From assembly GCF_029633865.1 (NCBI RefSeq), contig NC_079224.1, forward strand, positions 18,875,126 through 18,939,125: DNA of 64,000 nucleotides, given 5' to 3'. Positions within the stretch are counted from its first letter, which is position 1, and every line of letters begins with the position of its first letter. Shown here piece after piece: positions 2,024 to 43,517 of this stretch. The DNA is from Lampris incognitus. Lineage: Eukaryota; Chordata; Actinopteri; Lampriformes; Lampridae. The position numbers and the translations under genes are program-made. Under the pieces are notes generated by a model. That model was given only the letters and a program-made list of their open reading frames with translations, ran no database searches and was not told the DNA's origin.

Positions 2024-2344
2024 GTATTTCGGTCACTTTCAACGCTCTTATTCATGGGTTTAATGGTCATTTCGATGTCTCAGATTAAACCCCGGACTCG
2101 TGTTCCGAGTTTGTCTTCAAATGATAAAAAAAATTATATTCATATAGCATTTTCCATACTGTAGCGAATTCGGGGGGGCAACCGCAGGGACTGCTGCGGC
2201 CGAGACGCGAACCCGTATCGCCCGCGACAACGTTAACCAGTCGACTGAAGGGTGGTTAACGTAGTAGCTTGCGGTGTGGGAGCCACGGGTTCGCGTCCCG
2301 GATGCAGCGTCCCGAGCTGCCCCCCCCCCCCGAATTCGCTACAT

Positions 2345-2362
2345 TGGTGTCAGAAGTGGGAT
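2345..2362 (+). other. primer binding site-like, tRNA-Leu type
   Basis: TGGTGTCAGAAGTGGGAT lies 1 bp after the LTR-like CTACA end. It is complementary to the 3' end of a CCA-tailed tRNA-Leu whose acceptor/T-arm strand reads ATCCCACTTCTGACA. The same 18 bases occur at 43323-43340. Confidence 0.6.
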
Positions 2363-2446
2363 GGGGCGACCGTAAGGCCATCGGAAGCGTATGAAGGAGC
2401 TGATATGCTTAAGCGCGGGGACGCGCATCCCGAAGGAGGAGGGTAG

Positions 2447-2602
2447 TGCAACGTGCATGGATAAATAGACACGTTGGTCCTTGACTAATGGGTCGGACCC
2501 TTCAGTCGACTGGTTAACGTTGTCGCTTGCGGAGTGGGAGATACGGGTCCGCGTCCCGACTGTAGCGGTTCCCGGACTGCCCCCCCCCCCGAATTCGCCA
2601 CA
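2447..2602 (+). repeat. 3' LTR of TRIM-like element copy 1
   Basis: This 156 bp LTR starts TG and ends CA directly after a polypurine tract. It contains a tRNA-like segment, a C-tract and GAATTCG near its 3' end. It aligns with 43375-43517, sharing AACGTGCATGGATAA near the start and a tail resembling GAATTYGCCACA. Confidence 0.6.
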
Positions 2603-2606
2603 ATAC

Positions 2607-5806: not shown

Positions 5807-6232
5807 GGGTGCATCCGGGTGGTGTGGCGGTCTATTACGTTGCCTACCAACATGGGGCTCTCCAGTTCGAATCCCGTGTTACCTCCGGCTTGGTCGGGCG
5901 TCCCTGCAGACACGATTGGCTGTGTCTGCGGGTGGGAAGCCGGACGTGGGTATGTGTCCTAGTCGCTGCATTAGCGCCTCCTCTGGTCAGTCAGGGCGCC
6001 TGTTTGGGGGTAGGGAGAACTGGGGGGAATAGCGTGATCCTCCCACGTGCTACGTCCCCCTGGCGAAACTCCTCACTATCAGGTGAAAAGAAGCGGCTAG
6101 CGACTCCAAGCATGTCTGCAGTCCTCCCCGGATCGGCAAAGGGGGTGGAGCAGAGATTGGGAAGATAGGGGTAATTGGCCAGACACAATTGGGGAGAAAA
6201 GGGGGGACATTTTTAAAAAGAAGAAGAAGAAG
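5807..6232 (+). mobile_element. tRNA-derived SINE (family A), copy 1
   Basis: This near full-length copy of about 426 bp has a tRNA-like head with a B-box-like AGTTCGAATCCCG. A body common to all family A copies follows (GGAAGCCGGACGTGGGTATG, AACTCCTCACTATCAGGTGA), and the tail ends in an AAG-rich run. It is flanked by a target duplication close to AAAAGTTAGCACT (5792-5806 and 6233-6246). It is in the same orientation as vipr1. Confidence 0.8.
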
Positions 6233-8926: not shown

Positions 8927-11900
8927 TAAGACTGCACACGTACAAGCGTGCCTGTTGGTTTGTGTATGGGTGGGGGCCACGGACAGAGAGGAGGAGGCAA
9001 AGGGGGCAGTCATGCATCACTCAATGACCACTGGCTTTAGGAGGACGACTGATAAAGGGGGAGTAGTTTTACGCAGCTTGAAATACTGTGGGGGGGAAGA
9101 AAAACAAAACATTTTCGTCGCTCTAACTTTTGTTAACACGTCCGTCGCATGTTTTGATGAATTTTTGTCCCTTTCGAAACAGCGAAAGGGACACATTGTG
9201 GCGTTGATGTGTGTTCAGCATTTTCATCTTTCTGACGTGGAAGAGAAGGTTGGCACTGCTCATGCTATGCACCTGGTAGCATCACTGGTTCAAGTCTTGC
9301 TCATGATCCGTGTTAACCATCAATTACATCCTTCCAGTTGGTCCCTCGTTATGTGTACTTAAACAACACTGCCACAAAAAGCACGTAGGCCTGGGGTGTC
9401 CGGGTAGCCTAGTGGTCTAGTTCATTGCCTCCCAACATGGGGATCGCCGGTTCGAATCCCCGTGTTACCTCCGGCTTGGTCGGGCTTCCCTACAGAAACA
9501 ATTGGCCGTTTCTGCGGGTGGGAAGCCGGATGTGGGTATGTGCCCTGGTCGCTGCACTAGCGCCCCCTCTGGCACTAGTGCCCCCTGGCGAAACTCCTCA
9601 CTGTCAGATGAAAAGAAGCGGCTGGCGACTCCACATGTATCAGAGAGAAGGCATGTGGTAGTCAGCAGCCCTCCCCGGATCGGCAGAGGGGGCTGGGCAG
9701 TGACTGGGACGGCTCACAAGAGCGGGGTAATTAGCCAAGTACAATTGGGGAGAAAAAGGGAGAACCCCCCTTCCCCACAAAAAAATAGAGCATGTAGGCC
9801 TGAGTGGGCCTACTGCACAGCACTAACCTGCATGTCTTTACCTTTCTCCTCCGCCATTGTTGATGTTTCTTTTCCTCATATGAAGCACCGTTCTGTGTTA
9901 TAATTTTCCCTCTTGCGATTTATTTCTTTTCTTATTGGTTAGAGGGCTATCAAGGGAGCGGTTTAATTATCCATGAGGAAAAATCCTTAGATCAAGGATT
10001 TTCAAAACTGGATGACAATTTGTTTTACATGGCCGAGATGACTCTCCTCTGAGTTCCCTCCATCTCTCAAATCTTCATTAACTACCACGTGTAGCATTTC
10101 CCCGGTGTAATCTCGCCTGCTGCACTCAAAGGAGTTGTTTATTTGAATCGGCTTGTCGGGCGGACCCCCCCCCCCCAGCTTTGTTCCCATCACAGCGTGT
10201 CTGATGGGAGGATGTGTTGAACACTGCGTTCTGCTGCCTCTCATAAACAAAGAAGACGAGATGCTTTTGGTTTACTGGCGTTGGGAGAATTCTTCATGTG
10301 TGGCGCGCTACAACAGCCCCGGCTAATGGGACGCTTCTGACACAAGGTCTTTCCATATAAGGTATAATAAACCCACTCACAGTCAATTCACGGGGACATG
10401 TACGAGGGTATAAATGTACCTAAGTCTCTGGCACGGGGATTGTTGGTTCGAATCCCCGTGTTACCTTTGGCTTGGTCGGACGTCCCCACAGACACAATTG
10501 GCCGTGTCTGTGGGTGGGAAGCCGGATGTGGGTATGTGTCCTGGTCGCTGCACTAGCGCCTCCTCTGGCCGGTCAGGGAGGAGGAACTGGGGGGAATAAC
10601 GTGATCCTCCCACATGCTACCTACCTCTGGCGAAACTCCTCACTGTCGGTGGGCGACTCCACATGTATTGAAGGAAGCATGTGCAGCCCTCCCCGTATCG
10701 GCAGAGGGGGTGGAGCAGTGACCGGGACAGCTCGGTGCAGTGGGGTAATTAGTCAGATACAATTGGGGAGAAAAAAGGGGGAAAATGTACCTAGATCTGA
10801 CCCAATAGCCTGAACAGCACCCCTCAACTGACCCAGTACATTACCATATGCTACCATACATTTTATTTTATATATGTGCACACTGTAGCACCGCGTCTAC
10901 AACATCATTTCCACTATGTGGAATAGTTTGTCTTACACTTTTCCTTTTTCCATTGTATGTGAAGCGCTGTTGGGGCTGCGCCACAGGTGTCGGTGTGCAT
11001 TGCACAACTGTACAGGGCGACCCATAAGCCTGCACCAATGTTAATTCCTGCTAATTCCAAGATTAATTCCTCAAGTTCTCAATTTTTTTTTCTTTCCTGC
11101 TTAACCTGAATCCCCTGATGAGTGTGGCCCCACAAATCTGATATTCAGGCCTGCAAAATGACGTCAAGAGCGTACCACGTGTAGGTGTCACCGCCCTGTG
11201 ATTTATCCGATAATTCCTCAGTTGTAGGCAGGCCATCGATAGGCCAAGGGGGCCTCCGAGCCATAATTTATTATGAGCGTGTCAAGGGTTTATAGTGGAA
11301 AGCAGGGTTTTCTGGGAAGCTCTGATGTGACCCATATGGGAGACAGGTTGACTTAGGGAAGGAGAGCACCCAGGGGGAGACAGAGAGAAGGGGGGGTACA
11401 GAAAAAGAGTTAGTGGGCAATGTGAGGATGGCGGCAGAAGCAGTATACGGTGTATATCACCAGCCTGTCAAGGGGCCGGAGGATCAACAGGCCCACGCTG
11501 CGCACCATGGAGGACCGAGTCAGAAGGGACTGGGAAGATAGAGAGAGCCATTATTATTGAACTATGTTTCGCTGATATGAACTGAGCGAGGTATGGAATG
11601 GGTCAACATTAGAGCGTGAACCGTTGTCCATAAAACCTGCCCCCGGCTTTCAGCGATTTCAATTGTGACTTGTTATCAACAGTCTCCAATCAACATTTTT
11701 TTCGGCTATCCAGATACAGTGTATTTGTGAACATTGCGCACCGTGCCTTGTAAACTGAACTCCGCTTTATGTATTTGACCTGCTTGGTCTCGGTCTCTAT
11801 CGGTGGGATTTGATGGCGAAAACACCCATGTAGTCTTTCCCCAGACCTTTAACCCTGTTTCCATCATCTGTCGCATTTGTGATGAACTCAAACCGTTGAC

Positions 11901-18229: not shown

Positions 18230-21200
18230 GGGCTGTCGGTGTGTTTGAATCAGCGTGATCAAGGCTTTGTTTGTGCAGCTCAGGTGTTAAATGAGTTTTT
18301 CATTGTCAAAATCTGAATCAAACTTTAATAGATTAGCGTCACAATAGGTTGTTTACGTACTCAGCACTTGCCTCTGATTACAGTAAGTAACCATGTAAGC
18401 TGTTAGCTAATCCATGTCGCATTCCTTAACAGTATCATCAGGACAGTAATTGCAACAGTAACTAGCGTTGTCCTATTTCAAAACACTTGTGAGCTGCTTT
18501 GTAGCGGCTGCTTTCAAAGAGTAACAGCCGAATTTTCTTTGATTCGGTTGGAAATGGGGTCCCAAAATTTACAAATTGTATCAAAGAAATAAGAAACATT
18601 ACACAATAGTGCTAATTACAGGGATTTTTTGTTTGTTTGTGTGTTTAGTGTTTTAGTTTCTTTTCACATGCACTGGATTGTATTTTCCCAGTATTATTTT
18701 ACAGCTGAACACAGATTTTATCTGCATCATTTCAAATACATTATATTTCATAATAGTGTGTTTTTTTCCATTCACTTGCACTGCAAATCTCCTGTCTCGT
18801 CTCTTGGTTGATATGCAGGTGGGGTGCAAGGCAGTGGTGGTCTTCTTCCAGTATGGGGTCATGGCCAGTTACTTTTGGCTTCTGGTGGAGGGCATTTACC
18901 TCCACGCTTTGCTTGCTGTCTCCTTCTTCTCTGAGAAGAAGTACTTCTGGTGGTGCATCCTGATTGGTTGGGGTAAGTTCCCAATGTTATAGTGCTGTCT
19001 GACTTTCAAGGAGACAAAATCAGTCTGAAGTTGTCAAGGGCAGCCGCACATCATTCAATTCCAGGGACAGCGAGGACAAGGAACACAGACAAGAGATAAT
19101 TGAAATACCTTTTCCCACGGCTACAAAGTCTTTGACCACGTATACCAGTCAATTTTTAAGTAATGACTATTTCTAGATTTGTTTTGATGATGTGCAAGTT
19201 GGAACAGGTAAGTACTGCGTCTGCGATCAGCATTAGAAATACACTATCTGATAGCAGCAGGCAGTAGTGTCCAGACCCTGTCTTAGTGTAAATGCAGAGA
19301 ACTTAGAGGAATGTCAACGTTGCCTCGCACTTTTTCAAATGTGCTACACCAGAGCCAGAAATCAAAGGACTAAAACTTGAACCTGTGGTGTTTTTAATGA
19401 CTGCAAGTTTTCTAATTTACATCTAGGATGCTTTCAACCGCATAAAACAAAAATACCAGGAAGTATTTGTTAGTTGCTTAAGGCTTAAGGCTGATACAGC
19501 ATCTACTGGGTGTGCAGTATGGGAGAGAGTCTCACACCTACACAGACGTCTGATTTTGATAAAACACGTCATATCATATTCATTGTTATAAACGCTTATT
19601 TTGAAATGGCCTTTTAGGGCGTTAAACCCCCAGTGTTATGGGCATCCGAGTGGTGTGGTGGTCTATTCCATTGCCTACCAACATGGGGATCGCCGGTTCA
19701 AATCCCTGTGTTACCTCCGGCTTGGTTGGGCGTCCCTACAGACACAATTGGCTGTGTCTGCAGGTGGGAACCCAGATGTGGGTATGTGTCCTGGTCGCTG
19801 CATTAACGCCTCCTCTGGTCGGTCGGGGTGGCTGTTCATGGGGGAGGGGGAACTGGGGAGAATAGTGTGATCCTCCCACGTGCTACGTCCCCCAGGTGAA
19901 ACTCCTCACTGTCAGGTGAAAAGAAGTGGCTGGCGACTCCACATGTATCAGAGGAGGCATGTGGTTGTCTGCAGCCCTTCCCAGATCAGCAGAAGGGGTG
20001 GAGCAGCAACCAGAACGGCTCGGAAGAGTGGGGTAATTGACTGGATACAATTGGAGAGAAAATGGAGGAAAAATTCAGAAAAAAAAAAACACATCATATC
20101 ATATCATACCCATCATTATAAACATTTATTGTGAAATGGCCTTTTCGGGCATTAAAACTCCGGTGTTAGTTGTCATTGAAAAGGGGATTCAGTATGCGTG
20201 TCGTGACCATTGTTATTTTATCCATGGAAACAAGCAAAGTTATCTGAAGAGTTGAAATGGTTGTGTTTGGCTCCAGGAAAACACCAATAAGACATGATGA
20301 GTTCAAGCTCAACTTCAAGTTCAAGTTGTTTTATTTGTCGATGCACAACCACGCAGCATGGCAGGCATAGCTGGCAATGAAATGCTTAGGCATCAGCTCA
20401 ACAGTTAAAAAAAGCTAACGAATAGGACATGACAGATTAAGTTAAGACTAAAAATAAAAAAATCTAAAAATTAACAAAAAAATATATAAAATTACAAAAT
20501 TAAAGTATTTACAGTTCAGTGTTACAACTTAAAAACTAAGCTAAAATAGCTAAAAATAGACAAAAAAGTAAGCTAAAATTCACAGCGTATGCAGGCCGGA
20601 GAAGAATAAAGTTGAATTTAAACTAGAGTCACACATTAAAATTGATGAAATTAATGTTTGACATGGAAATCTAACAGTATATACAGAGGTATGTAGGTAT
20701 TGTGGATAGTTAGGATGGATCTATACCAGGCCAGAAATGCATTGCTGCTTTAGACCATTTCTGTATAAGATAATCGATCAAAATGGATATACCAGCAGAG
20801 GCATGCTAAATGTTTGCCGTCGTCTTTAATCTTGCTGAGTGAATAGGCTTCTTCCTATGAGCAGGTTGGGGGATATTAATTGTCTGTCACTAAGAGCCAT
20901 GTCATTGGCTGGAATAACTCAAATCAGGTTTTGCTTTTGTCTCCTGATCGCAGGGGCTCCCTCCATCTTTATTATGGCATGGGTGATCACAAAGGTTTAC
21001 GTCGATTCTCCGGGGTAAGTAAAAACAACTCTTAATTTGTTAAATCTTCCCAGGTAAACCGAAAGAGAATTTGACTTGAAATAATGAATGGGGATGGTGA
21101 GGTTTTCAGTGCCTCCTCCAAATTTGAGACCTTCCCCATTGATAATGACAGCACCAAATTGGTACTGTGAACAAGAGATGCAATCAGACTCAAAAACAAA

Positions 21201-24200
21201 AAAATAGTGCTGAAATGTTAAGCATTGACGTGATGATCCACAGCTGGTCTCTGTGAAGGTCTGCAGTGGACCACTTTGTGAAGATGCAAGAGGCAAGGGT
21301 ATTCTGGAGAAAATAAACCCTCAGACAAGTTTTCTGTCATGTATTATGAACATGTGAACCATTAATCCCCCCAAAGACCTATTTGCACATAGTTTTTGTC
21401 TTTTGTTTTGTTGAGAAGGTCTATGCCCTCGCCTTCCTTTATCATCACAGCTCCCTCTGTTTTTCCTGTCTGCTACAAAAGGTGCTGGGACACGATTGAA
21501 GACAACCCATGGTGGATCATCAAGACAGCTGTTTTAACCACCATCCTGGTGAGCCACAGGGAGCGTCATCTTGTTATTTACATTTTTGGCACAACCGCGT
21601 GTTTACATTTACCAGTCTGTTATTCTCCCTCCCAGGTTAACTTCTTACTCTTCATTCGTATAATCCGGATCCTGCAACAGAAGATGAACTGCCCGGACAT
21701 AGGGAGGAAGGAGTCCAATCAATACTCGTAAGTTTTAAACCTAAATATGTCCATGTTTCCAGTGTAAATCCTTACTATAGCATGTCTCAAGGTAACACGT
21801 ACATTTCTTTTTGGGTAACAATTAAATCCTTTTACTTGTTTTCATGTAGTTGGTGTCTTTACACATTACAGAGGATTGCTTCCACTCATGTTCTGTGTAC
21901 TATGTGGATTTGTTAAAGAAAAGGTGAATATGAGCCACCTTTTTACTTTGTTTTTCCATGTTTGTTTTTTGTTTGTACACACAGGAGACTGGCAAAGTCA
22001 ATGCTACTGTTGATACCCCTCTTTGGGATAAACTATATCATTTTTGCCTTTATCCCAGATCACATCAACCTACAAGTGAGATTGGTCTTTGATCTGATTC
22101 TAGGGTCATTTCAGGTAATGTGCCCTCCAGTAAGCTGCGTATGCATGGTCATATGCAGCCCCTGAGCATACGGTTTCACTGTGGGGATCTCTGAATGTCA
22201 GACACAAACATTATAATAATAACAGTAATAGTAATAATAATAATAATAATCATTGCATTTATATAGTGCTTTTCTAGAGGCCCAAAGCACTTCACATTGA
22301 AGAGGGTAACTCACCTCAACCACCACCAATGAGTAGCTCCCACCTGGGTGATGCACGGCAGCCATTTTGCGCCAGAACGCTCACCATGCATCAGCTTGAG
22401 GTGGAGAAGGAGGAATCATTGAGCCAATTACATGGGGGGATGATTAGGTGGCCAAATGGAGAGAGCCAGGTTGGGAATTTTGCCAGGACACCGGGGAACC
22501 CCCTACTCTTTGTGATAAGTGCCATGGGATTTTTAATGACCACAGTGAGTCAGGACCTCAGTTTAATGTCTCATCCAAAGACGGCATCTCCTACAGCAGT
22601 GTCCCCGTCACTGTGCTGGGACATTGGGAGTTAATATTTATATTAGGACCAGAAAGAAGACTGCCCCCTACTGGCCCACCAATACCACTTCTGGCAGCAA
22701 CTTATTTTCCCAGGAGGTCTCCCATCCAAGTACTAGCCAAGCCCATACCTACTTAGCTTCCGTCATTTAGCAGAGCCAGGGTGCATGCTGGTATTGCTGT
22801 CGGCATACAGTACAGTATACCATACCTGAATCCCCGATGAATAATAATGATAATAATGATAATAATAATATTAATACATTTTATTTGTGGGCCCCTTTCA
22901 GAGCACTCAAGGACACCTTACAGAACACAATAAAAACAAGCAGCACTGTATCAGACAGTGTCAAATCAAAACAAAGCAGGGTAGACAATAAAAAGTTAAT
23001 ACAACAGATAAGTATAAAATCATCATCTGCACAGAATTCAGTGAAGAGTGGATCCGACTGAATATGCCAGTTTGAAAAGGTGCATTTTGAGATGGAATTT
23101 GAAGGTTGAAAGAGAGTCACTGTTGTGAATTTCTTGTGGGAGAGCGTTCCATAGGTGGTGGGCAGAACGACTGAAGGCTCTAGTCCCCAAGCGGGCCAAT
23201 TGTGTAGTGAGTTGGAGAGCAGAACAGGATGTGAGAGTGCGGGAGAGCGTGTGGATATGAAGGAGTTCTGGAAGATATGAAGGAGCTAAGTTATTAAGGG
23301 CCTTAAAGGTGATGAGCAGGATCTTGAATTCAATACAGTATTTAACAGGGAGCCAATGGAGTTGCTGAAGAACAGGAGTGATATGATCTGTGGAAGGAGT
23401 TCTGGTAATGATACAGGCAGCTGAATTCTGGACCAATTGAAGCTTATGAAGACACTTGAGGGGAAGACCAAAGAGGATAGAATTACAGTAGTTAATACGG
23501 GATGTATTGCCAAGAATCAACGGTCTTGTATCTAATTTTGCATTAAGACATGTTCGATGTGGCTTTAGCTCATCGAGTGTTGTGATGCTACATCATCGAG
23601 TGTTGTGATGATACATTTGCTAAAATGTGATGCAACTCATTTATAAGCATGAAATTAAATATTAATGCAGAGAGACAAATTGAAGCGCAGAACACTAGAT
23701 ATAGAAAAGCTTTTTTTTTCATTTATAACTGTTTCAGCTCAGATTTCCTCACTCTGATTCCATGGGAAAAGCTCCCAGAGCTATCCAATTGATGAATTTC
23801 ATGTCTCAGTCCAAAAACAGTTTTCAGATAGACAAAAATATTCTAAACGTTTCTCCAGATGTGATGTTGTGCCAGTAATTTTTTTCCCAGACATGCTCAA
23901 TTGGGACCACACTAATCTCTCTCTATCGCTCTCTCTCCCTCAGGGTTTTGTCGTGGCAGTCTTGTACTGTTTTCTGAACGGGGAGGTAAGACTCTATTGA
24001 TTGGTTCAAATACAACACCATACAATTTTGTAAACTTTTATGTCCCTGTCTCTTTGTTTCCTATCTACACACTTGAAACTAGTATGCTCATACGCTTCTC
24101 TCCCACTTCCCCCACTTCTTCCTGTTTGTCTTTCTTCTGCCTCTCGCTCTCTTCTTAATGCCGCTCCTCTATCTGTCTTGCAGGTGCAAGCGGAGATTAA

Positions 24201-29900: not shown

Positions 29901-31625
29901 TTTGAAATGAATGTCATTCTTTCCATGAGGAGATAAATAAAGTGCAATCTAATCTAATTTGTCTTTATTATTATCAATTCATGTTTCTGAAACATTGGAA
30001 AATTTGAATCTTGAACATTTCTTCCTGAACAGAGGGGATGAAAAGCCTAAATAAATATTACAGTGTAGTTAAACTTGGACTAACTATGATGGAAGTCTAC
30101 TACAAATCAAGTCCATTTTATTCATATAGCCCAATATCACAAATTACAAATGACGACAGTTACTGTCATAGTGTTTAACTGGATTTACACTGTGTTGGTG
30201 TCAGTCTTTACATAAGTTTCGGTCCTATTGATCTTGAGTTGGACTTGCCACCTTTTTGTCTTGGACTTTACTCAGACTCAATAAACTTGGACTTGCCACC
30301 CCAAAGACTTGGTATGGACTAGTTTGGTCTTGATTACAAAGGTATGATAAGGTTAATAGATTATGGGGTTATGATAAAATTCATAGATTATGGGGTTATA
30401 ATAAAACATTTATAGATTATGGAGTTATGATTAGGGTCATAGATTTTTGGGTTATGATAAAATTAATAGGTTATGGGTCCAAATATTATGGTGGGGCCAG
30501 TTTTAGTACCTGCAGGAAGTAAGAACTGAAGGGCTCATCTTTGTTCTCTTCATTATAGAGCAAACCTCCAGCAACAAACACCTGGTTCTGCTTGGTGACC
30601 AAACTGCAGTGGTTCTTAGGAATTTCTGTTGAGTCTGAGGCCACAAAGCATTCATTTCGTACTGGGTCATAGGCCACAGTTCCCGTGTCACTTATCAACA
30701 GTATCAGGTCCGTCTCAAACATTCCAAACCGAAGGTTATTGTTGAGGATACCTGGAAGAAGCCCTTCCTCATCATCATCATCATCCTCACTTCCTTCTCC
30801 ACCCTCTGCCCCTTTGAGTTTGCTGGGCTTCGGCAGCTGACCTCTGTAGGCGTTTTTTACAAGCTCCAGCTCCGTCTTGATCTCTTGGTTGTTCTTAATG
30901 TACAGGTGTTTCTCCACTTTCTCGGAGAAATAATCCAAGGGTATCAGCCGGAAACGAACACAGCACAACAGGTCCAGCAGGTTCTTGAGCCGATCTTCCT
31001 TGTCGTGCCCAACCCAATCCATCACGGACTCAAATACCACCTCTTCCCGCTCCACGTTGAGGGCATCTGAGGTGATGATGGAGGCCAACTCACCTGGGCC
31101 AAGCTGGAGGAAGTCCTGGTCCCTGACAATAACCTGGTAGCGTTCACAAATGAACTCCCGTGCAGCCAGCGCAAGCCTTGGGCAGTCCAACAGCAACCCC
31201 AGCCTGAAGATAGCCAAGCAGTTTCCCAGCACCAGCTTTTCTTGGAGGTATGACACACATACTGAGAAGATGGAGGGGATCTGGTACATGTTGGCAACCA
31301 TGAAAATATCCTGGACATTCTGCTCTGTCAAGTTAATGTCTGAGGTGTACAAGTAACGCAGGATCATCCCCATAACACTTGGCTGGACATCTTTGAGGAC
31401 AATCTCACGTTTCTTGCTTTCCTCCAAGTCAGACAGAAACATTGCTTTGAAAAAGGGGCTGCTTGCAGCTAGCACTAACCGGTGGCAGGGAAACTCCTTG
31501 TCTTGGATTTTGAGGACGCAGTCCACAAACTTCTCATTCTCCAAGAGGTCACAGAGTCCATCCTGAAGCAGGGTCTGTTGGTACATCCGTGGCTGCTCCA
31601 CTGGGTCTATGGTCAAGGCAGCCAT
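26411..31625 (-). CDS. klhl40: Kelch-like protein 40, 6 exons, complete
   Basis: This is a BTB-BACK-Kelch protein of striated muscle. In mammals it is a CUL3-linked adaptor that stabilises nebulin and leiomodin-3 at the sarcomere. Minus-strand exons are 31625-30510, 29590-29430, 29139-29032, 28682-28497, 27692-27543 and 26522-26411. All phases join to 610 aa, against about 621 in human. The start [20 protein letters not shown] aligns with the family N-terminus, so the in-frame upstream ATG at 31727 is not used here. BTB covers roughly residues 20-130 ([20 protein letters not shown]). BACK follows to about 290, then an acidic linker with [11 protein letters not shown]. Kelch repeats run from about 340 on ([34 protein letters not shown]). 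Exon 6 ends [14 protein letters not shown]. The a/b paralogue is undecided. Confidence 0.94.
26713..27173 (-). mobile_element. tRNA-derived SINE (family B) with internal (AC)n, copy 1
   Basis: Read on minus, the tRNA-like head includes GCACGGTGGCGCAGTGGTTA and a B-box-like GGGTTTGAGCCCC. The conserved GTCCAAAGACATGTAGGTCA block, a long GT run (26858-26945 on + as AC) and a GGATGGATGG end follow. A perfect 13 bp target duplication CCCATTTGAACCA lies at 26700-26712 and 27174-27186, so the insertion is fairly recent. It is sense within klhl40 intron 5. Confidence 0.85.
26858..26945 (+). repeat. (AC)n microsatellite inside SINE family B copy 1
   Basis: About 44 uninterrupted AC units. Confidence 0.95.
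27968..28407 (-). mobile_element. tRNA-derived SINE (family A), copy 5
   Basis: Minus orientation, with the head near 28407 and the A-rich tail at 27968-27985. A short repeat of ACGATCCCC around 28328-28363 shows a local duplication of the B-box area. It lies in klhl40 intron 4 and is sense to the gene. No clear target duplication was seen. Confidence 0.8.
30345..30480. repeat. imperfect tandem repeat next to klhl40 exon 1
   Basis: About four AT-rich units of roughly 30-35 bp share ATAGATTATGGGGTTATGAT. They lie just downstream of the klhl40 exon 1 donor. Confidence 0.6.
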
Positions 31626-43077: not shown

Positions 43078-43517
43078 TATAGTGAATTCAGAGAGCAACC
43101 ACAGGATCCGCCGCGACCGGGACGCGAACACGTAGTTCACGCACCGCGGGCGACATCGCCAACCGCTCGACCATTAGCCAAGGGCCAACGTGTCTACTTA
43201 TCCATGCACCTTACACCAAGCCCCCTCCTTCGGGGAAGCGCATTTGGTGCGGGAGATACGGGTTCGCGTCCCGGCCGCGGCGGTTCCTGTGGTTGCCCCC
43301 CCCCCCCCCGAATTCGCTACATTGGTGTCAGAAGTGGGATACGCGCGGACGCGCTTTCCCGAAGGAGGGGGTAGTGTAACGTGCATGGATAAGTAGACAT
43401 GTTGACCCTTGATTAAAGGGTAGTCGAGCGGTTAGCGCTGTCTCCCGCGATGTGGAAGATACAGGTTTGCGTTCCGGCTGCGGCAGTTCCTGTGGTGTCC
43501 CTGCCGAATTTGCCACA
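43078..43517 (+). mobile_element. TRIM-like miniature LTR element with inverted LTR, copy 2
   Basis: Layout matches copy 1 at 2160-2602. An inverted LTR (43078 to about 43212) runs on into an inverted polypurine tract and internal sequence (about 43213-43240). A 5'-truncated forward LTR follows, ending GAATTCGCTACA at 43321. Then come the primer-site-like TGGTGTCAGAAGTGGGAT (43323-43340), a short internal region, GAAGGAGGGGG (43361-43371) and a complete LTR TGTAACG...GCCACA (43375-43517). Total length is 440 bp, against 443 bp for copy 1, but the junction between inverted and forward parts lies elsewhere. Target duplication is not clear. Confidence 0.65.
43375..43517 (+). repeat. 3' LTR of TRIM-like element copy 2, with pol III-like boxes
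   Basis: This 143 bp LTR contains TAGTCGAGCGG (43422-43432), a perfect A-box match (TRGYNNARNNG). About 33 bp later it contains GGTTTGCGTTCC (43465-43476), a weakened B box. The sister LTR parts read GGTTCGCGTCCC, one mismatch from the B-box core. The spacing is that of a tRNA gene. Confidence 0.55.

Follow-up and report, generated by a model that had tools for sequence, protein, structure and literature searches.

At positions 2160-2602 of the window, by which we mean the whole 64,000-nucleotide stretch of Lampris incognitus DNA analyzed here, lies a miniature element with the order LTR-PBS-PPT-LTR, in which an inverted 3' part of the LTR stands where the start of the 5' LTR belongs. Such a copy raises the question of whether the inverted head was already present when the element was inserted, and of how it could have been made. 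The original prediction named an inverted head, a primer site, a purine tract, a 156-bp LTR and ATAC flanks in this interval, and all of these are present. BLAST within the window detected another rearranged copy with an inverted head at 43078-43517, so the first is not unique. The two copies are laid out as follows:

2156..2159, no strand: left copy of the 4-bp target duplication (ATAC), from the sequence
2160..2252, minus strand: inverted arm, LTR ~51 to 156 backwards, its outer end being the U5 terminus (sequence comparison)
2253..2343, plus strand: 5' LTR remnant, LTR 65-156 (inner R-U5; sequence comparison)
2288-2298, plus strand: B-box-like GGTTCGCGTCC inside the 5' LTR remnant
2344..2446, plus strand: internal region (INT), 103 bp, including a single T and the primer binding site
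2345..2362, plus strand: primer binding site (PBS) TGGTGTCAGAAGTGGGAT, 1 base past the LTR end
about 2432..2446, plus strand: polypurine tract (PPT), just ahead of the 3' LTR
2447..2602, plus strand: 3' LTR, full, 156 bp, TG...CA
2503-2513, plus strand: A-box position of the 3' LTR, with 1 change against the family motif in this copy
2546-2556, plus strand: B-box position of the 3' LTR, with 1 change against the family motif in this copy
2603..2606, no strand: right copy of the target duplication (ATAC), from the sequence
43078..43243, minus strand: second copy, inverted arm covering an entire LTR plus the purine tract and part of INT
43244..43321, plus strand: second copy, 5' LTR remnant, LTR ~85-156
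43322..43374, plus strand: second copy, primer binding site and a short stretch of internal sequence containing a purine tract
43375..43517, plus strand: second copy, 3' LTR

In the first copy, hereafter the window copy, BLAST within the window aligned the inverted arm to the copy's own LTR at ~75% identity (E 6e-16) and the direct part at ~84% (E 7e-22), both far beyond chance. Most of the A box is gone from the 5' LTR remnant, and by eye the left arm is a mosaic of the two LTR subtypes described below. We take the primer binding site to be of the tRNA-Leu type. The second copy has a longer inverted arm than the window copy, and its flanks, GTTC and GTAT, agree at 2 of 4 positions. Other repeats in the window include a 5S rRNA-like head (Rfam E 2.5e-7) at 22689-22804 on the minus strand, followed by a tail that presumably resembles the fish 5S-derived SINE3; another dispersed family in both orientations (5808-5986, 9394-9572, 10390-10568 and 19640-19818, with inverted copies near 28, 35 and 44 kb); and a short minisatellite array of 27-29-bp units at 30332-30477.

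To place these copies in their family, an exact 26-mer made up of the LTR end and the PBS was searched in the 1.48-Gb host genome, where it occurs at 912 + 899 = 1811 sites and its reversed control at 0; being exact, the query favors better-preserved copies. A coordinate-ordered sample consisted of the first 66 of the 1811 sites in contig order, yielding 63 loci on contig C1 (60 plus L010, L020 and L029). Overlapping or duplicate loci (L003, L004, L007, L008, L045, L049 and L070) were removed before counting, and so was L051, which dissects like L050; these last two lie on different contigs (L050 and L051, C29:1078198 and C17:1113974) and may reflect a segmental duplication or a duplication in the assembly. 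A near-complete 5' LTR, starting at position 20 or earlier, was present in 41 of the 63 sampled sites, 2 of the 41 being preceded by another internal region, and an inverted LTR or internal region lay directly upstream in 8 (L010, L084, L085, L087, L088, L109, L113 and L122). The remaining sites were 8 with a truncated 5' LTR and no inverted arm found and 6 with internal gaps. Mirror forms, with both U3 ends outward, were recognized by eye in 3 of the 63 (L081 and L131, within the 41, and L132, within the 6), L092 and L117 being ambiguous. The 18-mer TGGTGTCAGAAGTGGGAT was exact in 52 of the 63, and plain units with duplications measured ~402-431 bp. The commonest form is thus an LTR element with a near-complete 5' LTR (41/63), which bears out the assignment to TRIMs made in the original prediction. 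A TRIM is a non-coding element shorter than 1 kb in which two direct LTRs enclose a PBS and a PPT.

Some loci were built differently. Head-to-tail arrays of the form LTR-INT-LTR-INT-LTR were seen at L043 (five LTRs), L128 (four), L034 and L038, and may be compared with zebrafish LTR-11_DR. At L079, L089, L105 and L114, the 5' LTR begins within the presumed R-U5 (at 62, 88, 82 and 106, respectively) and no inverted arm was found; these are perhaps truncated cDNA insertions. Bare palindromes were represented by four units, three with perfect duplications (L057, 181 bp; L056, 189 bp; L054, 194 bp) and one without (L052, 172 bp). Genome-wide, exact 13-bp inverted and direct U5 ends were paired in 34, 50 and 24 places at spans of 140-170, 171-201 and 202-232 bp, with 0 for the reversed-pattern control; these counts cover 140-232 bp only, and the longest span within that range was 228 bp. 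Uniform breakpoints would predict 41:38:29, from which the counted 34:50:24 barely departs, and the same model gives ~19 places at 233-263 bp, outside the counted range.

Within the LTR, a Pol III A box is followed 43 bp downstream by a motif resembling a B box. An exact A box with a B box (at most 1 mismatch) 40-48 bp away was found in 81 of 119 near-complete LTRs compared with 0 of 2380 dinucleotide shuffles, and in 64 of the 81 the A box was at LTR 57 and the B box at LTR 100. Conservation of the boxes among copies was uninformative, since the B box was above the LTR mean in subtype T1 and below it in T2, the A box being slightly above the mean in both. Rfam gave no tRNA match in the window and 18 loci, and ARAGORN no tRNA in the window and 28 loci. 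The spacing from A box to start was taken from tRNA SINEs, and on this basis Pol III transcription is predicted to start ~13 bp ahead of the A box, at about LTR 44. Because of the two motifs and their spacing, the family resembles Helenus, and it looks, from its sequence, like a Helenus-like TRIM, a type already known from fishes. Helenus TRIMs are described from cypriniform fishes, a catfish, milkfish, sturgeon, paddlefish and the coelacanth; the A and B boxes that mark tRNA-derived sequence in their LTRs are conserved, most have no functional tRNA, a Gypsy element mobilizes them, and their primers in vertebrates are tRNA-His, -Leu or -Lys (Kojima, 2024, PMC10886601). The earlier remark that miniature LTR elements are rarely described in vertebrates is accordingly out of date (PMC10886601). 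Points shared with Helenus, including zebrafish LTR-11_DR, are size, Pol III box motifs in the LTR, a PBS after the LTR, a PPT, 4-bp duplications in animals, high copy number and the tandem arrays of LTR-11_DR, and tRNA-Leu, the presumed primer here, is among the vertebrate primers (PMC10886601). The copies in this genome differ in that those tested had no tRNA-family match, and in that 8 of 63 sites carry an inverted head, whereas a word search of the main text of the Helenus account returned no mention of an inverted or palindromic form (PMC10886601).

Whether the rearranged units were inserted as such was evaluated from their target duplications. Among all loci collected, the units whose termini could both be placed comprised 24 bounded by U5 on either side, including some complex ones, 4 bounded by U3 on either side, and 59 that pair a U3 with a U5 end. 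Perfect 4-bp duplications flanked 13 of the 24 two-U5 units, 3 of the 4 two-U3 units and 31 of the 59 others, the last figure being made up of 28/41 LTR-INT-LTR units, 1/11 single LTRs and 2/7 others. Since 8 of the 59 have misplaced termini, being flanked by GTAG or CTAC, which in several cases is the purine tract (3' LTRs severed by chaining), the fair yardstick is 28/41 rather than 31/59, and the difference between 13/24 and 28/41 is not significant (Fisher p 0.29). The original prediction had drawn insertion of the whole rearranged unit from the single ATAC pair; a single 4-bp duplication is weak evidence, because insertion is mostly into RTAY (83 of the 118 flanks in the 59 one-U3-one-U5 units), so that a chance match is not rare. 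However, when the flanks were re-paired among the 24 two-U5 units, the mean number of matches was 4.0, and 13 was never reached in 100,000 re-pairings. Matches are therefore well above the null, many units went in as palindromes, and the conclusion that rearranged units were inserted whole is supported. The other 11 two-U5 units match at 3 of 4 positions (5 units) or at 2 or fewer (6 units, including the second window copy). With regard to palindromes with two U3 ends, L081, L131 and L005 have perfect 4-bp duplications, L132 has ATAT on both sides by eye, and L036, the only one of the four placeable units lacking a perfect match, has CTAC as its right flank, which raises the same doubt about a misplaced end. 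L131 turns at an inverted repeat, LTR 35-61.

Junctions were then located on the LTR. Among 36 head-to-head LTR/LTR junctions with both arms reaching U5, a recount that takes in arms reaching LTR position 20 or less, the break fell at LTR 44-76 in 29 inverted and 30 direct arms; this set is biased, much of it having been fetched with a junction as query. Arms breaking before LTR 44 numbered 2 inverted (L042 and the second window copy) and 2 direct (L065 and L068), and in 4 of 38 cases (L042, the second window copy, L087 and L113) the inverted arm extended beyond the point where the RNA is predicted to begin. Those of L087 and L113 cross the whole LTR into the internal region and end 2-4 bases past the PBS, and at L113 an octamer, ACGGTCTC, was seen by eye to be common to U5 and the inverted internal region. 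Junctions were more scattered in the coordinate-ordered sample, where the eight direct arms start at LTR 61, 65, 75, 84, 97, 106, 132 and 141, all inside the presumed R-U5, and seven inverted arms reach from ~47 to ~118 or just past the PBS (L087 and L113), the reach of the eighth palindrome, L010, being cut short at ~104. One common junction spot for all copies, an idea that stemmed from the junction-query set, was rejected on this scatter. Microhomology at the junctions was not above that of 1500 simulated random joins (mean 0.63 versus 1.55, on the list without arms reaching LTR position 20 or less), and annealing through palindromes was discarded as an explanation. The minus strong-stop strand of the window copy was no more structured than shuffled sequences (z 0.79), so a TAR-like hairpin is unsupported for that copy. 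Taken together, the lack of a microhomology excess and the ordinary structure of this strand argue against a simple hairpin primer.

The LTRs divide into two subtypes, T1 and T2, which allowed the parts of a palindrome to be compared. When the arms of 60 junctions were typed by pattern count, independently of the fetched set, 39 were T1/T2, 12 T1/T1 and 9 T2/T2; compared with the ~30 mixed junctions expected under random pairing (hand arithmetic), this is a modest excess, and the idea that all arms are heterotypic was dropped. Left arm, inner part and 3' LTR were compared in 29 triples, 20 of them fully typed, with one junction, at L069, counted from both sides. In that order, the typed triples were T1-T2-T1 (9), T2-T1-T2 (2), T2-T1-T1 (4), T1-T2-T2 (3) and T1-T1-T1 (2). 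The subtype of the inner part differs from that of the 3' LTR in 11 of 20 (10 of 19 without the repeat), compared with a mismatch in 9 of 65 plain or tandem LTR pairs from all loci (Fisher p 0.0004; 0.001 without the repeat) and in 6 of 33 from the coordinate-ordered sample (p 0.008; 0.014 without the repeat). Median identity of the left arm was 85.9% to the far 3' LTR (n = 21) and 78.7% to the neighboring inner part (n = 17), while the inner part was 78.9% identical to the 3' LTR (n = 17) and plain LTR pairs reached 90.4% (n = 72). The window copy shows the reverse, with 75% between left arm and 3' LTR and 84% between inner part and 3' LTR. In 7 of the 20 typed triples, the left arm differs in subtype from the 3' LTR.

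Plain and palindromic copies thus occur together in this genome, with U5/U5 and U3/U3 termini, target duplications and the subtype pattern described above. We lean, by a small measure, toward the view that the palindromes are integrated products of faulty reverse transcription, in which the nascent minus strand makes a same-strand template switch, a fold-back, within the 5' R-U5, often with two RNAs taking part. First-strand transfer would carry the minus strand to a second packaged RNA with an intact 5' end, and it would read through the PBS, U5 and R of this RNA to the 5' end, where there would be no regular continuation. The 3' end of the minus strand, while copying U5 and R, might then switch onto a minus-strand template, supplied either by another strong-stop DNA or by the strand itself, from its 5' end or from the segment immediately beyond the PBS. 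Copying would run out to the U5 end of that template, making both outer termini U5, and integrase would accept the two U5 ends and generate a 4-bp duplication; the corresponding error on the plus strand, which has U3 at its 5' end, would give the U3/U3 copies. Two co-packaged RNAs of different subtype would be involved in many of these events, and transfer to the second RNA would give the left arm and 3' LTR one subtype and the inner part the other, which would fit 11 of the 20 triples. Because the left arm is unlike the 3' LTR in the 7 discordant triples, another molecule, a second cDNA, would be needed there. We infer the strand, the template switch, the packaging, the partner and all steps from RNA to insertion from the structure of the integrated copies.

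Template switching is favored by the duplications that mark insertion as units, by the genome-wide spread of paired U5 ends, by direct arms that start no earlier than LTR 61 in all eight palindromes of the coordinate-ordered sample, by the clustering of breaks at LTR 44-76, with the Pol III start predicted at about LTR 44, by the inverted arms of L087 and L113 that stop shortly after the PBS, by the greater similarity of the left arm to the far 3' LTR than to its neighbor, and by the frequent subtype difference between inner part and 3' LTR. It is weakened by the lack of excess microhomology and of strong-stop structure, by the 7 discordant triples, by the 4 of 38 arms that pass the RNA start, by the window copy's left arm, which is less like its 3' LTR, by the 11 of 24 units lacking a perfect duplication, by the scattered junctions of the sample, and by span counts that, taken alone, hardly differ from uniform breakpoints. 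Its main rival is end joining before integration, whereby two separate cDNAs, often one of them incomplete, would be fused at their U3/R sides by non-homologous end joining and integrated via their two U5 ends. This account, which we regard as possible though doubtful, explains the lack of junction microhomology as well or better, and the heterotypic arms (39/60 versus ~30 expected) and subtype-discordant triples (7/20) also speak for it, but within a unit the left arm tends to resemble the distant 3' LTR, and stalling of the minus strand is a better fit for arms that stop shortly after the PBS (L087 and L113) or at LTR 44-76. Of the two routes to a rearranged cDNA in the original prediction, snap-back is plausible in itself, but in its pure one-molecule form it is insufficient, since the arms are heterotypic in 39 of the 60 pattern-counted junctions and no microhomology excess was seen. 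Self-integration is not favored, because integrase joins an LTR end, whereas the junctions unite two internal positions.

The remaining explanations fare worse. The palindromes might have formed once the element was already in place, through a second copy nesting in it or through genomic inversion and deletion; long inverted repeats are recombinogenic, three loci (L033, L044 and L069) are nested or complex clusters, and 11 of 24 two-U5 units lack a perfect duplication. The other 13 end on both sides in LTR termini flanked by a matching 4-bp duplication, and a later event would have to replace the U3 end with target-site precision, so we consider this origin unlikely. A single master lineage copying as a palindrome would account for the TCGA fusion common to L015, L039, L047 and L055 and for the bare palindromes with duplications (L054, L056 and L057), but it is distinctly improbable given that junctions and subtype orders vary between loci and that a transcript from the inner promoter would be expected to lack the inverted arm. 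Inverted repeats are prone to misassembly; nonetheless, an artefact of assembly is very improbable, since 108 places on many contigs were counted by pattern, the fetched loci differ in their junctions, and 13 of 24 have a perfect duplication of their own. Finally, the inverted termini would suit a foldback DNA transposon, with inverted repeats and no LTR form, or a DIRS-type element, and we give these next to no weight: the plain LTR form is the commonest, with a direct 5' LTR before the PBS in 41 of 63 sites, 28 of 41 plain units have perfect duplications, and the ends are TG...CA. The original prediction had named a foldback consensus with no plain LTR form as its own refutation, and the plain form rules this out. 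DIRS elements are not known to make target duplications.

To our knowledge, cDNA that primes itself or switches between strands is known mainly from test tubes, as a dead end. The likeness of the fish palindromes to HIV-1 strong-stop self-priming (Guo, 1997, cited in PMC4668388) is that aberrant DNA arises from the strong-stop 3' end near the 5' end of the RNA; the HIV-1 product is aberrant or abortive cDNA tied to the TAR stem-loop (PMC4668388), whereas the fish products appear to be integrated and the window copy has no strong hairpin. Template-switch insertions in Triticeae (Sabot and Schulman, 2007, PMC1950507) likewise involve complex cDNA inserted whole and marked by flanking duplications, but they are direct three-LTR elements, and the word "inverted" is absent from the text of that report. 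Cassandra, a plant TRIM with 5S rRNA in its LTR, likewise has a Pol III promoter there and forms tandem arrays; it differs in its host, in its 5S promoter and in that the account consulted describes no palindromic copies (PMC7215508). DIRS-1 shares inverted LTRs but is a tyrosine recombinase element in which these are the standard form (PMC5633606). In the open-access literature, which was the scope of our search, no account of palindromic TRIM copies was found; judged by sequence, the element type appears to be known and the palindromic form new.

With more than 100 U5/U5 places that can be counted by pattern, the fetched ones differing in junction and many of them having duplications, sequence alone can address where reverse transcriptase stalls, how frequently a particle holds two RNAs, and whether a U3 end paired with a U5 end is a requirement of integrase. 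They also call for caution, in that palindromic repeats in such genomes may be derived from LTRs rather than from DNA transposons. As a tentative extension, first-strand transfers that failed may have left hundreds of integrated products in this genome, strong-stop DNAs of co-packaged RNAs having cross-primed or folded back at the RNA 5' end and integrase having taken up the U5/U5 palindromes; the four inverted arms that pass the predicted RNA start count slightly against this. If it were true, the bare R-U5 palindromes of 180-195 bp would form a novel kind of mobile-derived repeat, and the Pol III start of the LTR could be read off from palindrome junctions.
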